Made by a program: the position numbers and the translations under genes. This document shows, piece after piece, positions 34,757 to 40,550 of a stretch of 64,000 nt of DNA. The notes under the pieces are model-generated. The model was not told the origin of the DNA. It ran no database searches and saw nothing but the letters and a program-made list of their open reading frames with translations. This stretch comes from Pseudomonas mucidolens (GTDB taxonomy: Bacteria; Pseudomonadota; Gammaproteobacteria; Pseudomonadales; Pseudomonadaceae): the NCBI RefSeq assembly GCF_900106045.1, contig NZ_LT629802.1, positions 744,001-808,000 on the forward strand, written 5' to 3'. Positions within the stretch are counted from its first letter, which is position 1, and each line of letters opens with the position of its first letter.

Positions 34757-35542
34757 ATGCAGCCCTTACTGGCGTTGACCGACACCCAGATCAGCACGTG
34801 GGTGGCTTCGTTCATCCTGCCGCTGTTTCGCGTGGCCGCGCTGCTGATGACCATGCCGGTATTCGGTACAACACTGGTGCCGCAGCGGATTCGTCTGTAT
34901 TTCGCGGTGGCGATTACCGTGGTCATTGTGCCTGCCTTGCCACCGATGCCGGCGGTCAATGCGCTGGACCTCAGTGCGCTACTGCTGATCGCCGAGCAAA
35001 TCCTCATCGGCGCCTTGATGGGCTTCTCGCTGACCCTGTTTTTCCAGGCTTTTGTGATCGCCGGGCAAATTGTCTCGATTCAGATGGGCATGGGCTTTGC
35101 CTCCATGGTCGACCCCACCAACGGCGTATCCGTGGCGGTGATCGGGCAGTTCCTGACCATGTTGGTGACGCTATTGTTTTTGGCAATGAACGGCCATCTG
35201 GTGGCATTTGAAGTGCTCATCGAGAGCTTCACCACCTTGCCGGTGGGCGAGGGGTTGGTGGTCAATCAGTTCTGGGAACTGGCCGGCCGACTTTCATGGG
35301 TGCTGGGAGCTTCATTGTTGCTGGTGCTGCCGGCGATTACCGCGTTGCTGGTGGTCAACATTGCCTTTGGCGTGATGACCCGCGCGGCTCCGCAACTGAA
35401 CATCTTCGCCATTGGTTTCCCCTTGACCCTGGTATTGGGCATGGGGATTTTCTGGATCGGCCTGGCCGATATTCTCAATCAGTATCAACCGCTGGCCAGT
35501 GATGCCTTGCAGTTTTTACGTGATCTGGCACGGGCGCGCTGA
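34757..35542 (+). CDS. fliR: Flagellar export-gate protein FliR
   Basis: The 261-residue integral membrane protein has about six transmembrane segments and the FliR patterns FRVAALLMTMPVFGTTLVPQ and QMGMGFASMVDPTNGVSV. It completes the FliPQR gate complex. Its last codons and the following flhB start are duplicated at 37413-37458. It is separated from flhB by three bases. Confidence 0.96.
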   Translation: MQPLLALTDTQISTWVASFILPLFRVAALLMTMPVFGTTLVPQRIRLYFAVAITVVIVPALPPMPAVNALDLSALLLIAEQILIGALMGFSLTLFFQAFVIAGQIVSIQMGMGFASMVDPTNGVSVAVIGQFLTMLVTLLFLAMNGHLVAFEVLIESFTTLPVGEGLVVNQFWELAGRLSWVLGASLLLVLPAITALLVVNIAFGVMTRAAPQLNIFAIGFPLTLVLGMGIFWIGLADILNQYQPLASDALQFLRDLARAR

Positions 35543-35545
35543 GCC

Positions 35546-36682
35546 ATGGCCGAGAGCGAGAGTGGTCAGGACAAAACAGAAGACCCCACGGAGAAACGTA
35601 AAAAGGACTCCAGGGAAAAGGGCGAGATTGCCCGATCCAAAGAGCTCAACACCCTGGCAGTGATGCTGGCTGGCGCCGGTGGCCTGCTGATCTATGGCGG
35701 CGGCCTGGCGCATGACCTGATGGAGCTGATGAAGCATAACTTCTCCCTGCCACGGGAAGTGTTGCTGGATCCGCGCGCCATGGGAATTTACCTGCTGCAT
35801 TCAGGAAAAATCGCAATCCTGGCCGCGCAACCGGTACTGATCACCTTGCTTCTGGCCGCGTTGATCGGACCGATCTCCCTTGGCGGCTGGTTGTTCGCCG
35901 CCGGTAGCATGGCGCCTAAATTCAGTCGATTGAACCCGGGGGCGGGGATCAAGCGGATGTTTTCCACCAAGGCCTTGGTGGAGTTGCTTAAAGCCCTGGC
36001 AAAGTTCTTCATCATTTTGTTCGTGGCATTGGCGGTATTGCGCGCCGACGTTGACGATTTGCAGCGCATCGCCCACGAGCCTCTGGAGTCGGCGATCATC
36101 CACAGCGTGCAATTGGTGGCTTGGAGCGCGTTGTGGATGGCCTGCGGGCTGATCCTGATCGCGGCGGTGGATGCCCCGATCCAGCTGTGGGAAAGCCACA
36201 AGAAACTGCTGATGACCAAGCAGGAAGTGCGTGACGAACACAAGGACCAGGAAGGTCGTCCCGAGGTGAAGCAGCGAATTCGCCAACTGCAACGCGAAAT
36301 GTCCCAGCGCAAGATGATGGCGTCGGTCCCGGATGCCGATGTGGTCATTACCAACCCGACCCACTACGCCGTAGCGCTCAAGTACGATCCGGAGAAGGGT
36401 GGGGCGCCGATGCTGCTGGCCAAGGGCAGCGACTTTACGGCATTGAAAATCCGCGAAATCGCCCAGGCCAACGACATCCTGCTGCTGGAGTCGCCGGCGT
36501 TGGCACGCTCGATCTTCTACTCCACGGACCTCGACCAGGAGATTCCCGCCGGACTGTACCTGGCCGTGGCCCAGGTCCTGGCCTACGTCTACCAGATCCG
36601 CCAGTACCGCGCGGGCAAGGGCAAGCGCCCCGACCCGCTCAAAGACCTGCCCATCCCGCCCGACCTTCGCCGCGACGACTGA
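35546..36682 (+). CDS. flhB: Flagellar export switch protein FlhB
   Basis: The 378-residue protein has the conserved start (GQDKTEDPTEKRKKDSREKG), four membrane segments between about 30 and 210, and a cytoplasmic domain with the self-cleaving NPTH motif at residues 270-273. Cleavage there lets FliK switch export from hook to filament proteins. The end of the reading frame is followed by REP fragments. A shorter FlhB-like paralog is encoded at 52671-53000. Confidence 0.97.
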   Translation: MAESESGQDKTEDPTEKRKKDSREKGEIARSKELNTLAVMLAGAGGLLIYGGGLAHDLMELMKHNFSLPREVLLDPRAMGIYLLHSGKIAILAAQPVLITLLLAALIGPISLGGWLFAAGSMAPKFSRLNPGAGIKRMFSTKALVELLKALAKFFIILFVALAVLRADVDDLQRIAHEPLESAIIHSVQLVAWSALWMACGLILIAAVDAPIQLWESHKKLLMTKQEVRDEHKDQEGRPEVKQRIRQLQREMSQRKMMASVPDADVVITNPTHYAVALKYDPEKGGAPMLLAKGSDFTALKIREIAQANDILLLESPALARSIFYSTDLDQEIPAGLYLAVAQVLAYVYQIRQYRAGKGKRPDPLKDLPIPPDLRRDD

Positions 36683-36714: not shown

Positions 36715-36826
36715 GTAGGAGCGAGCTTGCTCGCGAAAATCGTCAACGATGACGCGCGCATTCCGCATAAACCCAGTGCCTTGGAGTTCCTCGCGAGCAA
36801 GGGCTAGGCCACTCCCGCGCGCCTAC
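36715..36826. repeat. REPIN with one degenerate arm downstream of flhB
   Basis: The left unit at 36715-36739 is identical over 25 bases to the REP at 1910-1934. The right unit (about 36790-36826, TCGCGAGCAAGGGC then TAGGCC) is a decayed inverted copy. A further REP-like scrap (GTGGCGAGGGGCCAAGCC) is at 36686. The rest of the 341-base gap 36683-37023 holds the palindromic region listed below and no gene. Confidence 0.75.
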
Positions 36827-36919
36827 AGCAACGGCTTGACTGATCGGCATGAGGACCTGCCCTCTGGCCGCCGGAAAGTTGCACTCGGGACAGCGTGCCC
36901 TTCGTCTTGAATTCGGTCG

Positions 36920-36958
36920 TACCTGTCAACTCTCACAGTAGCTGCCGCCGTGCTTTCG
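36920..36958. promoter_or_regulatory. Upstream region of the FKBP gene, paralogous to that of the CSD gene
   Basis: The 39 bases here (TACCTGTCAACTCTCACAGT onward) are identical at 30 positions to 37573-37611, upstream of the first cold-shock-domain gene. The core is an imperfect CTGTCAA-N2-TTGACAG palindrome. Being shared upstream of two genes in one insert suggests an operator or promoter; which protein binds is unknown. Confidence 0.45.
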
Positions 36959-37023
36959 TAGTTTGATGACCCGTGAGGCGCGTGTTGCGCGATTCAGGAC
37001 TCTCAGGGTCAAAGGAGCATCAA

Positions 37024-37365
37024 ATGAGCGTTATCGCCACTGAAAGCGGTCTTCAATATGAGGACGAAAGGGAAGGTACTGGTGCAGTAGCAAAAGCTGG
37101 CCAGACCGTTCGTGTGCACTACTCCGGTTGGCTGACGGATGGTCAGAGGTTCGATTCGAGTAGGGATAGTGGCGACCCATTGAAATTCAGACTGGGTCTG
37201 GGGATGGTCATTAGCGGATGGGACGAGGGAGTGCAAGGAATGAAGGTCGGCGGGATTCGCAAGCTGACGATCCCGCCCGAACTTGGCTATGGCGCAAGGG
37301 GGGCAGGTGGGGTGATTCCTCCGAATGCGACGCTCGTGTTTGAAATAGAGTTGCTCGAGGTCTGA
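37024..37365 (+). CDS. FKBP-type peptidyl-prolyl cis-trans isomerase
   Basis: The 113-residue protein is a complete single FKBP domain with VRVHYSGWLTDGQRFDSS, GWDEGVQGMKVGGIRKLTIP, ELGYGARG and IPPNATLVFEIELLEV. It has no signal peptide, so it would act in the cytoplasm on proline-containing clients. The ATG at 37024 has an AAAGGAGCATCA ribosome site. It sits between flhB and flhA, where Pseudomonas flagellar clusters normally have nothing; its client and any link to flagella are unknown. Confidence 0.92.
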   Translation: MSVIATESGLQYEDEREGTGAVAKAGQTVRVHYSGWLTDGQRFDSSRDSGDPLKFRLGLGMVISGWDEGVQGMKVGGIRKLTIPPELGYGARGAGGVIPPNATLVFEIELLEV

Positions 37366-37412
37366 TCATTCCCAACCAGTAGCAACCGCTGACCAATGAC
37401 AAACACAGGTTA

Positions 37413-37458
37413 CAGTTTTTACCTGATCTGGCATGGGCGCGCTGAGCGATGGCCGAGA
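37413..37458. repeat. 46-bp duplicate of the fliR/flhB junction
   Basis: This stretch matches 35510-35555 (end of fliR, stop codon, flhB ATG and first codons) at 43 of 46 positions in the same orientation. Flanking sequence on both sides is unrelated. The copy even keeps the TGA stop and the ATGGCCGAGA start, but no open flhB frame follows. It marks a past duplication or recombination at this locus. Confidence 0.9.
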
Positions 37459-37575
37459 CCCACCAGTCCTGCCTCGCGACCCTACTTGTGGCAAGCCCCT
37501 CGCCACCGAAAGCGCGATGCCCACAGCGAAGTTGCAGCCATACCTCCCCGCCATTCGTCTAGAAACTCGCGCTAC

Positions 37576-37591
37576 CTGTCAACTTTGACAG
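37576..37591. promoter_or_regulatory. Palindromic operator-like site upstream of the first CSD gene
   Basis: CTGTCAACTTTGACAG is a perfect inverted repeat (7-bp arms, 2-base centre), extendable to CTAC(C)TGTCAA / TTGACAGTAG. It lies 73 bases upstream of the ATG at 37664 and has a related copy upstream of the FKBP gene. The TTGACA half also resembles a -35 box. The remainder of the 37366-37663 gap shows a REP scrap and the fliR/flhB copy only. Confidence 0.5.
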
Positions 37592-37663
37592 TAGTCACCG
37601 TCGCGTTCTCGCGGTTCTATTGGCTTACGCACCGCGCAGCGAGGTGCAGGGAGGGTGGTAATT

Positions 37664-37870
37664 ATGGTGTTTAGAGGCAGGGTTAAATCCTATGACCAGA
37701 AGACTGGCGTAGGATCGATTGCGCTGGATGAAAGGGAAGAGGAGGTGTGGGTGGATCTGCACGGTTCGGGCGGGGTCCGGCTTTCAGTTGACCTCGAAGT
37801 GCGGTTTCAAATGATCCATCGACCCGATGGCATCTATGCGTCAGGTGTCCAATCGATCAATGCCACCTGA
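37664..37870 (+). CDS. Small degenerate cold-shock-domain protein
   Basis: The 68-residue protein (MVFRGRVKSYDQKTGVGSIA) follows the cold-shock-domain layout, but its nucleic-acid motifs are altered: the RNP1 region KGFGFI is TGVGSI and the RNP2 region VFVHFS is VWVDLH. It may bind RNA weakly or have lost binding. A GAGGG ribosome site eight bases before the ATG at 37664 supports this start. It is followed 34 bases later by an intact CSD gene. The function is unknown. Confidence 0.7.
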   Translation: MVFRGRVKSYDQKTGVGSIALDEREEEVWVDLHGSGGVRLSVDLEVRFQMIHRPDGIYASGVQSINAT

Positions 37871-37904
37871 GCGGGTGCTCGGGTGAAGGTGCAGGAGAAC
37901 GACA

Positions 37905-38111
37905 ATGAAAACGGGTACGGTCAAGTGGTACAACGATTCAAAAGGGTTTGGGTTCATTACGCAGGATGGCGGAGGCGATGACTTGTTTGTTCACTTCTCG
38001 AGTATTCAAGTCGAAGGTTTCAAAACACTTCAGGAGAATCAAAAGGTGCAGTACGTTGTTGTCCAAGGACCCAAAGGCGCCCAGGCAGCTGAGGTTCGGC
38101 CTATCCCATGA
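37905..38111 (+). CDS. Cold-shock protein (CspA family)
   Basis: The 68-residue protein is an intact cold-shock domain with [20 protein letters not shown] (RNP1 KGFGFI) and [10 protein letters not shown] (RNP2). Such proteins are single-stranded RNA/DNA chaperones. A GCAGGAGAACG ribosome site precedes the ATG. Its C terminus ([15 protein letters not shown]) is normal. It forms a small accessory group with the FKBP and degenerate CSD genes between flhB and flhA. Confidence 0.92.
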
Positions 38112-38343
38112 GCGTTCTCGCGCATTGGCACGAGCGGCATTCAGATGCCTGGCTTGAGGTTTGTTGGCCTCCATCGACATGGCTATTCCACATGCCGGCA
38201 TCCGATCAGTCGTCAACTGGGCAAACTTGATTGATTATCTGACGCCAAATGCGTCATCTGCACGCTGGCAATAGGCCGGAGGGTAACGCACCAAGCCCGT
38301 TTTCCGGCACACCGCAACGTTTCCGAAATCCTCAAGCAAAAGT
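38112..38343. other. Intergenic region between the CSD gene and the flhA promoter
   Basis: No gene is supported here. A short inverted repeat TGACGC-CAAAT-GCGTCA lies at 38240-38256. Base composition is closer to 50% GC than the surrounding genes. Nothing else was recognised. Confidence 0.5.
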
Positions 38344-38359
38344 TGGACGGCTTCTTGCA
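38344..38359 (+). promoter_or_regulatory. Sigma54 promoter of flhA
   Basis: TGGACGGCTTCTTGCA has the GG-N10-GC spacing and a perfect TTGCA -12 box, with a divergent -24 (TGGACGG). It lies 62 bases upstream of the flhA GTG. flhA-flhF-fleN are FleQ/RpoN-dependent in P. aeruginosa. The accessory insert thus ends just upstream of an intact flagellar promoter. Confidence 0.75.
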
Positions 38360-38420: not shown

Positions 38421-40550
38421 GTGGATCGTTCTCAAATGCTCAACACTGCCCGTGGCTCCGTGGCTGACCTCTCGCGAGGCAATCTGGGCGTGCCGCTGTT
38501 GCTGTTGGTCATGCTGGCAATGATGATGTTGCCGATTCCGCCGTTTCTGCTGGACGTGTTTTTTACCTTCAACATTGCCCTGTCCATCGTGGTGCTGCTG
38601 GTGTGTGTCTACGCCCTGCGGCCTCTGGATTTTGCGGTGTTCCCGACCATCTTGCTGGTTGCCACGCTGTTGCGCCTGGCCCTTAACGTGGCGTCCACGC
38701 GGGTGGTGATGCTCCACGGTCAGGATGGTCACGCCGCGGCCGGCAAGGTGATCCAGGCCTTCGGCGAGGTGGTGATCGGCGGCAACTACGTGGTCGGTAT
38801 CGTGGTGTTCGCGATCCTGATGATCATCAACTTCGTGGTGGTCACCAAGGGCGCCGGGCGTATTTCCGAGGTGAGCGCGCGTTTCACGCTTGACGCGATG
38901 CCCGGCAAGCAAATGGCGATCGACGCCGACCTCAACGCCGGCCTGATCGATCAGAATCAAGCCAAGGCGCGCCGCTCCGAAGTGGCCCAGGAGGCCGAGT
39001 TCTACGGCTCCATGGACGGCGCGAGCAAGTTCGTGCGCGGCGATGCGATTGCCGGACTGCTGATTCTGTTTATCAACCTGATCGGTGGCATTGCGGTCGG
39101 TATCTTCCAGCACGGCATGACGTTCGGCGACGCGGGCAAGGTGTACGCCTTGCTGACCATCGGTGACGGTTTGGTGGCGCAATTGCCATCACTGCTGTTG
39201 TCCACCGCCGCGGCGATCATGGTGACCCGTGCGTCCGGCTCCGAGGACATGGGCAAGCAGATCAACCGTCAGATGTTTGCCTCGCCCAAGGCCCTGGCTG
39301 TGGCCGCCGGCATCATGGCGATCATGGGCATTGTGCCGGGTATGCCCCACGTGTCGTTCCTGACCATGGCAGCGTTGGCGGCGGGCGGTGCGTATCTGTT
39401 CTGGAAAAAGCAGAACGCGGTCAAGGTCCAGGCCTTGCAAGAAGTGGAGCGCCAGCAGGAATTGCTGCCGTCGCCGGCCCGCGCCCAGGAAACCAAGGAG
39501 CTTGGCTGGGATGATGTCACTCCGATCGACATGATCGGCCTGGAAGTGGGCTATCGCCTGATTCCCCTGGTAGACCGTAATCAGGGCGGCCAATTGCTGG
39601 CGCGGATCAAGGGTGTGCGCAAGAAGCTGTCCCAGGACCTGGGCTTTCTGATGCCCACCGTACACATTCGCGACAACCTTGACCTGGCCCCCAGCGCGTA
39701 CCGCCTGACCTTGATGGGCGTGACCCTGGCGGAAGCGGAGATCTATCCGGACCGCGAGCTGGCGATCAACCCCGGCCAGGTGTTTGGCAGCCTCAGTGGC
39801 ATTACCGCCAAAGATCCGGCTTTTGGCCTGGATGCGGTGTGGATCGAAGTCAGCCAACGCAGTCAGGCGCAGTCGTTGGGTTACACCGTGGTGGACGCCA
39901 GTACGGTGGTCGCGACTCACCTCAACCAGATTCTCTACAAACACTCCCACGAGCTGATTGGTCACGAAGAAGTCCAGCAACTCATGCAATTGCTGGCCAA
40001 GGCTTCGCCAAAACTCGCCGAAGAGCTGGTGCCGGGCGTGTTGTCGTTGTCGCAGTTGCTCAAAGTGCTGCAAGCGTTGCTGGCCGAGCAGGTGCCGGTA
40101 AGGGACATTCGCAGCATTGCCGAGGCTATCGCCAACAACGCCGCCAAGAGTCAAGATACCGCCGCTCTGGTGGCTGCGGTACGCGTCGGGTTGTCGCGTG
40201 CCATCGTCCAAAGCATTGTAGGGCTTGACTCCGAGCTGCCTGTGATTACCTTGGAACCCAGGTTGGAACAAATATTGCTCAATAGTATCCAGAAGGCAGG
40301 ACAAGGCCAGGAAGAGGGCGTTCTGCTGGAGCCAAGCATGGCTGAAAAACTCCAGCGTTCGTTAATTGACGCCGCGCAGCGCCAGGAAATGCAGGGCCAA
40401 CCGGTGATTTTGCTGGTGGCCGGCCCGGTTCGGGCGATGTTGTCGCGGTTTGGACGTCTGGCAGTACCGAATTTGCACGTTTTGGCTTACCAGGAAATTC
40501 CTGACAATAAGCAAGTGACTATCGTCGCGACAGTAGGGCCCAACGGCTGA
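38421..40550 (+). CDS. flhA: Flagellar export-gate protein FlhA
   Basis: The 709-residue protein has about eight transmembrane segments in the first 330 residues, the conserved FHIPEP-type loop (RFTLDAMPGKQMAIDADLNA), and a large cytoplasmic domain that forms the nonameric docking ring for chaperone-substrate complexes. It starts with GTG at 38421 after a CGAGGAATACC ribosome region. It begins the flhA-flhF-fleN-fliA run. Confidence 0.97.
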   Translation: MDRSQMLNTARGSVADLSRGNLGVPLLLLVMLAMMMLPIPPFLLDVFFTFNIALSIVVLLVCVYALRPLDFAVFPTILLVATLLRLALNVASTRVVMLHGQDGHAAAGKVIQAFGEVVIGGNYVVGIVVFAILMIINFVVVTKGAGRISEVSARFTLDAMPGKQMAIDADLNAGLIDQNQAKARRSEVAQEAEFYGSMDGASKFVRGDAIAGLLILFINLIGGIAVGIFQHGMTFGDAGKVYALLTIGDGLVAQLPSLLLSTAAAIMVTRASGSEDMGKQINRQMFASPKALAVAAGIMAIMGIVPGMPHVSFLTMAALAAGGAYLFWKKQNAVKVQALQEVERQQELLPSPARAQETKELGWDDVTPIDMIGLEVGYRLIPLVDRNQGGQLLARIKGVRKKLSQDLGFLMPTVHIRDNLDLAPSAYRLTLMGVTLAEAEIYPDRELAINPGQVFGSLSGITAKDPAFGLDAVWIEVSQRSQAQSLGYTVVDASTVVATHLNQILYKHSHELIGHEEVQQLMQLLAKASPKLAEELVPGVLSLSQLLKVLQALLAEQVPVRDIRSIAEAIANNAAKSQDTAALVAAVRVGLSRAIVQSIVGLDSELPVITLEPRLEQILLNSIQKAGQGQEEGVLLEPSMAEKLQRSLIDAAQRQEMQGQPVILLVAGPVRAMLSRFGRLAVPNLHVLAYQEIPDNKQVTIVATVGPNG

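Follow-up and report, generated by a model that had tools for sequence, protein, structure and literature searches.

Exchangeable cold-shock-type cargo between flhB and flhA of Pseudomonas, preceded by putative LuxR-type promoters

LuxR solos of subgroup A are encoded between fpr and rsmC and include the known solo PpoR; the portion of Bez 2021 available to us describes them as the solos found most widely in P. fluorescens species (PMC8546723). That portion holds no direct evidence for targets, and reports no effect on neighbour genes. The corresponding portion of the PpoR report of 2009 lists targets, direct or indirect, from a microarray, and the terms "lux box" and "palindrom" are absent from it (PMC2703642). 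Deletion of the PpoR-like PplR changed the tabulated genes mostly about two-fold, according to the available part of a further study (PMC11543582); its RNA-seq table was considered as a regulon test and set aside, the excerpt being too short and the changes too weak. Direct targets of PpoR-type solos are not established in the accessible sections of these three studies (PMC8546723, PMC2703642, PMC11543582). LuxR proteins of the same type as PpoR, PplR and Ppu16R occur in the genome analysed here and in 28 relatives, and the regulon that we propose below is absent from those sections.

The window is a 64-kb stretch (744,001–808,000) of a 5.85-Mb single-contig genome (G000). A first-pass annotation had described an FKBP isomerase, a degenerate cold-shock-domain protein (CSD') and an intact one (CSD) between flhB and flhA, together with common upstream palindromes and a duplicated junction. 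Pfam matches and open reading frames uphold this gene arrangement (Table 1), in which CSD starts 34 nt after the end of CSD'; fliR, like flhB and flhA, owes its name to reading and to matches in relatives. The palindromes were recovered as well: a search of the window allowing up to 3 mismatches found two, against 0 in 100 shuffles, and both lie inside a 67-nt direct repeat of 70% identity. The duplicated junction is equally real, the copy consisting of pieces 84% and 92% identical to the source, with an in-frame stop (seen by eye) and a 6-nt length difference. It was seen in this genome alone among 78 flhB–flhA spacers, and is therefore a private scar rather than a feature of the system. The scrap 3' of flhB is presumably REP-like.

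Table 1 Features of the flhB–flhA insert, in window coordinates
Feature	Position	Strand	Basis or remark
fliR 3' end / flhB first codons, source of duplicated junction	35471–35555	+	repeat search
flhB	35546–36682	+	named by reading and match to relatives
REP-like scrap 3' of flhB	~36716–36742		by eye
Putative LuxR-type box 1, upstream of FKBP	36921–36941	+	1 mismatch to ACCTGTCAACTYTGACAGTAG
Putative -10 hexamer TTTGAT	36962–36967	+	20 nt after box 1; spacing statistics
FKBP	37024–37365	+	Pfam FKBP_C, E 1.6e-37, 128.1 bits, above cut-off
Decayed copy of fliR/flhB junction	37368–37458	+	repeat search
Putative LuxR-type box 2, upstream of CSD'	37574–37594	+	exact match
Putative -10 hexamer TTCTAT	37615–37620	+	20 nt after box 2; spacing statistics
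CSD' (degenerate cold-shock-domain protein, 68 aa)	37664–37870	+	sub-threshold Pfam CSD match; purifying selection
CSD (intact cold-shock protein, 68 aa)	37905–38111	+	Pfam CSD E 1.2e-28
Sigma-54-like promoter TGG-N8-TTGC of flhA	38344–38358	+	downstream of whole insert
flhA	38421–40550	+	named by reading and match to relatives

A profile built from two CSD' sequences, applied to 398 same-genus genomes, had matches at E ≤ 1e-6 in 44 of them, weaker matches merging with ordinary cold-shock proteins. Among the 30 best loci, the present one included, flhB and/or flhA adjoin CSD' in 29 (the thirtieth is a 2.2-kb stretch) and an intact CSD lies immediately 3' of CSD' in 28, while an FKBP is present in 3. 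When the contigs of named genomes were searched, a single CSD' protein as query gave no match and an alignment gave 25 loci, all from Pseudomonas. These include P. marginalis, P. simiae, P. veronii, P. grimontii, P. antarctica, P. costantinii and P. salomonii, and some carry the labels P. viridiflava or P. syringae. Here flhA or flhB stands beside CSD' in 24 loci, CSD lies downstream in 21 (22 if L295, with differing coordinates, is counted) and FKBP is found in 1; this set overlaps the first, at least two contigs agreeing in length with those of G295 and G317. The conserved unit is CSD'-CSD, with FKBP a rare Burkholderiaceae-like addition, and the pair is probably a bicistron of fluorescent Pseudomonas. 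Of the three-gene cassette put forward in the first-pass annotation, the CSD'-CSD pair thus stands and the FKBP as a fixed member does not, its position in the order varying too. The trio does recur in other genomes, for example in G004 as flhB-CSD'-CSD-FKBP-flhA, so one half of the outcome named beforehand as counting against the cassette, that the three genes never co-occur elsewhere, was not what was found. In G377 (L067), CSD'-CSD are accompanied by an FKBP, by another, third CSD and by a decayed fragment of a further CSD; the box pattern of our script had no match before this FKBP. The fragment separates the third CSD from FKBP, an arrangement suggestive of recombination among CSD copies. 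At another locus (L078:1495–1917), CSD' and CSD are fused in a single open frame of 140 codons.

The FKBP has 113 residues, with no signal peptide seen by eye. Its identity to a small Burkholderia FKBP is 80.5%, and that to the remaining FKBPs in the genus about 50%, a figure that leaves aside the copies of G004 (71%) and G377 (57%). The present and G004 proteins are 69% identical to each other, each being nearer to Burkholderia (80% and 75%, respectively). By E-value, the top entries among the 120 matches listed from 8000 scored candidates include longer proteins of other sources, at 61–69% identity. The FKBP tree is mostly without resolution, so relatedness rests on the identities, which suggest that the gene was acquired by transfer, perhaps more than once. 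In size and identity (74–81% to the named Burkholderiaceae sequences compared) it resembles the small cytoplasmic FKBPs of that family, but here it is found in Pseudomonas behind a putative LuxR-type box. Both in this genome and in G004 the FKBP has its own box, with one mismatch; a Burkholderiaceae-type gene may have been added here with its own copy of the CSD' promoter.

Such a foreign-looking FKBP, together with the variable content, the REP-like scrap and the private junction duplicate, would suit mobile or phage/bacteriocin cargo in transit. We consider this very improbable. CSD'-CSD occupies one locus in nearly every case examined, and this fixed location weakens the idea. No integrase-like ORF was noticed by eye in the insert, the 231-base promoter stretch had no plasmid match, and in PHROGs the FKBP and CSD' had no match and CSD fell in a generic cold-shock family. 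The suggestion of a phage or bacteriocin origin accordingly found no support in these comparisons.

The CSD' protein scores 18.7 bits against a Pfam CSD cut-off of 27 (24.8 for the G004 copy), and precomputed Pfam annotation does list the domain for some of its relatives. Selection on CSD' is evident from pN<pS in all 378 pairs of 28 sequences, with a median dN/dS of 0.33 (255 pairs with dS<1.5). For CSD the median is 0.155 (26 sequences, 83 pairs), again with pN<pS in all pairs; both sets omit L052 (the L022 gene), L078 (fused frame), L079 (one residue from L080) and loci lacking a usable match. Across 65 CSD' sequences G5, Y10, G17, I19, G56 and A59 never vary, and I51, H52 and P54 hardly do. 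An AlphaFold2 prediction gives a five-stranded OB fold of the CSD type (pLDDT 92.9), with TM scores of 0.84–0.86 to CspA and Bc-Csp, and the 21 solved chains matching this model at E ≤ 0.001 are all entitled cold-shock proteins or cold-shock domains. In alignments, CSD' is devoid of the residues GFGFI and FVH of the intact CSD, which we take to be the RNP1 and RNP2 motifs. Compared with CspA, CspE and CspD, the intact CSD lies above the Pfam cut-off, retains the RNP motifs and hits these NCBI families with scores under the equivalog cut-offs, whereas CSD' has the predicted fold, without RNP1/RNP2-type residues and below the Pfam cut-off. CSD' is thus a gene under selection, with a predicted CSD fold and without the usual nucleic-acid-binding motifs. 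CSD could act as an RNA chaperone and the FKBP as an extra folding helper, while CSD' could modulate CSD or be a relative that binds proteins and no longer binds RNA in the normal way. The intact CSD is also hit by one CSD model of a defence-system library. Elsewhere in this genome (L007, G000:C1:1,135,401) there is a cold-shock-domain match with an in-frame TGA.

The protein types, folding and RNA chaperones, recall the proposal of a cold-adaptation module, in which all three proteins would be made at low temperature and help to fold or export flagellar proteins; P. antarctica is among the named carriers. This seems to us quite improbable, as FKBP is missing from most loci, the promoter class is common to unlike genes, and different cargo sits at the site in other genomes. 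Furthermore, the sole match to the Rfam cspA thermoregulator is sub-threshold (29.3 versus 78 bits) and overlaps the coding region; two further Rfam matches are weak and at chance level.

CTGTCAACTTTGACAG is a palindrome that resembles a LuxR-type box, with its centre at about -43 before a -10 element. A TGTCA-N4-TGACA dyad stands upstream of CSD' in 27 of the 30 best loci, with variants in the other three, and a slightly degenerate box is present upstream of CSD' in all 25 named loci. The dyad extends to CT/AG, which makes it a CT-N12-AG palindrome as in LuxR-box promoters. A degenerate 21-mer (≤1 mismatch) had 422 matches in 68 of 119 genomes, a count in which a few dyads may figure on both strands, compared with 2 for the reversed control. 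Of 34 sites outside the flhB–flhA gap, 27 have flanks less than 75% alike, some of them belonging to related genes; in 13.8 of these 27 the best TATAAT-like hexamer lies 19–25 nt past the box, as opposed to a mean of 3.1 (sd 1.4) and a highest value of 8.2 in 500 shuffles. This -10-like hexamer at a fixed distance places the dyad centre near -43, close to the -42.5 of class II promoters, with the start position deduced from the -10 element. LuxR-type activators commonly sit at about -43. Likeness to the las, rhl and lux boxes extends to the CT-N12-AG dyad and to the centre at about -43 before the -10, and one copy of the box is a perfect 20-bp palindrome, ACCTGTCAGATCTGACAGGT. The present sites, which are putative, differ in their GTCA/TGAC core and, in most cases, an asymmetric 3' flank TAG. 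Both promoters of the insert would carry a LuxR-type operator (CTGTCAAC/TTTGACAG) centred at about -43, over the -35 region, from which a LuxR-family activator, with or without ligand, could recruit sigma-70 polymerase by class II activation. LuxR-family control of the boxes is probable.

Four autoinducer-binding LuxR proteins are encoded in this genome. One has a LuxI neighbour, a second lies beside a pip-like hydrolase (by eye), and a third, at G000:C1:5,844,511, has the autoinducer domain and the fpr and rsmC flanks of a PpoR-type solo, these gene labels coming from reading and the published description. The fourth, at 2,015,345, is located between two boxes. The fpr flank of the PpoR-type gene is present in 28/28 and the rsmC flank in 26/28 relatives examined. 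Of the 68 box-bearing genomes, 60 have a PpoR-like LuxR (E ≤ 1e-30, which denotes similarity and not orthology, some counted matches being only 28–35% identical), as do 18 of the 51 without a box (Fisher p = 1.6e-9, ignoring kinship). Nine threshold pairs gave p values from 1.6e-9 to 7e-16, likewise uncorrected for kinship. Phylogenetic regression (PGLS) over 78 genomes left a modest association, with p = 0.011 (lambda 0.88), or 0.04 with lambda fixed at 1, for a regulator type that had been chosen after part of the data was seen. Two counted matches (G103 and G087) have an in-frame stop. No box was found in 29 PpoR-type loci of about 3 kb each, which agrees with the absence of effect on neighbour genes in the literature. 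The likeliest regulator would be the PpoR-type LuxR solo between fpr and rsmC, a tentative assignment, a little short of even odds; the link is correlative. Such a solo would respond to acyl-homoserine lactones, including those of neighbours.

Some other LuxR-family protein, be it LuxI-paired, the pip-type solo, the solo at 2,015,345 or one with the HTH domain only, might be the regulator instead, and we regard this as unlikely though by no means negligible. The genome offers four autoinducer-binding candidates, one of them between two boxes, and further LuxR-HTH proteins, some HTH-only, are present and could bind the same box. Eight box-bearing genomes have no PpoR-like match at E ≤ 1e-30 (G020, G022, G069, G078 with a partial match, G079, G081, G098 and G101 with a split one); G020, G022, G069 and G079 have an HTH-only match 55–62% like the query HTH. 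The protein at 2,015,345 was rejected as a general regulator, since among 50 genomes only one other, G377, has an ortholog-like match (76%). The LuxI-paired protein was also rejected: LuxI, which 24 of the 119 genomes have, shows no association with the box (17/24 versus 51/95, p = 0.17). The solo at 2,015,345 adjoins a Rieske-like protein (by eye), a VpsR-domain sigma-54 regulator and small orphan proteins (L115, G000:C1:2,006,500–2,020,500), and the LuxI/LuxR pair (L081, G000:C1 ~1,878,000) lies beside a glycosyltransferase labelled RhlB-like by reading.

The flhB–flhA gap was surveyed in 87 same-genus genomes (handles G000–G099), leaving aside G021, G024 (contig edge) and G093 (split match). 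With 80 stretches and 4 loci in hand, six stretches without flhB were left out, namely two short contigs and G019, G046, G059 and G075, where no flhB lies within 6 kb of flhA and box-like sites occur in all four. The 78 spacers counted span 110 nt to 5.1 kb. A box is present in 20 of the 43 spacers of at least 300 nt, 23 having none, and in 0 of 35 shorter ones; the 67.5 kb of spacer contain 26 boxes, against 0.04 in mononucleotide shuffles. Behind the gap box the cargo is CSD'-CSD in some spacers, and in others CSD on its own, a 222-aa protein with no Pfam match, or something else. A sigma-54-like promoter is found 71–85 nt before flhA in 78/78 spacers, against a mean of 0.8 and a maximum of 3 in shuffles, and in none of the 78 does a box follow it. 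As this promoter is kept throughout and no box lies beyond it, cargo is added between transcription units and leaves the flhA promoter untouched. In the available part of the FleQ article, FleQ controls flhA (PMC6120874).

It is improbable, in our view, that the box itself is a FleQ site, which would place the genes in the flagellar regulon and let the cassette act in flagellar assembly or biofilm control. The location in the flagellar cluster would fit, and the FleQ consensus GTCaNTAAAtTGAC given in the same part of that article has equal half-sites, GTCA/TGAC (PMC6120874). The two kinds of site have these half-sites in common but differ in spacing, promoter class and distribution. The box has an N4 spacing where FleQ has N6, and its dyad extends to CT/AG; it is accompanied by a sigma-70-like -10 at a fixed distance, whereas FleQ, again according to the available part, works together with sigma-54 at flagellar operons (PMC6120874). 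A FleQ-controlled promoter, GTCA-N6-TGAC with sigma-54, is not what is found at the box. A FleQ-family match (PF06490) occurs in 119/119 genomes while the box occurs in 68, and most box matches lie outside the gap (422 in 119 genomes as compared with 26 in 78 gaps). With boxes mostly elsewhere, differing cargo in the gap and a promoter of its own for flhA, the role in flagellar assembly that had been suggested for the insert is not indicated.

The boundary between the flhB operon and the sigma-54-like promoter that flhA has to itself would be a permissive site, and the insert accessory cargo lodged there. Overall, we favour, with a probability of roughly 60%, the explanation that it is accessory CSD'-CSD cargo, here with FKBP added, transcribed from LuxR-type box promoters, with a PpoR-type solo as the likeliest activator. 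The insert is probably signal-controlled cargo, apart from the machinery of the flagellum.

Searches of the open-licence literature found nothing relevant on this gene set or on the palindrome letters, and no such regulon under the flhB–flhA gap, cold shock with quorum sensing, or LuxR-solo regulons. As far as these searches show, the CSD' subfamily is new, and so are the proposed regulon and the site, each part being of a known kind. A wider picture, which we think rather more apt to be wrong than right, would be a genus-wide regulon of fast-changing accessory genes under one LuxR-type box and run mainly by the PpoR-type solo, for which the flhB–flhA boundary is a main loading site exchanging cold-shock-type pairs, FKBPs and orphans, and in which CSD' has turned from RNA to partner binding. 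An operator with 422 matches in 119 genomes would make the targets of PpoR-type solos directly testable. A puzzling insert in a flagellar cluster is explained as cargo that can be exchanged and is probably under signal control, and a conserved relative of cold-shock proteins that no longer has their usual RNA-binding motifs is defined.

Outside the gap, the ORFs behind boxes (20 stretches) are diverse and include a small secreted-looking protein, a thioredoxin, a DUF6252 protein, repeat-like proteins and orphans; two box sites in L120 have no downstream ORF of at least 40 aa. Within the gap, eight spacers (L196, L242, L189, L179, L229, L168, L194 and L241) have ORFs that look alike by eye behind the box, one example being of 222 aa. 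In L179, L214 and other spacers, a DUF6124 protein (one Pfam-confirmed) and similar-looking ORFs are found on the opposite strand.
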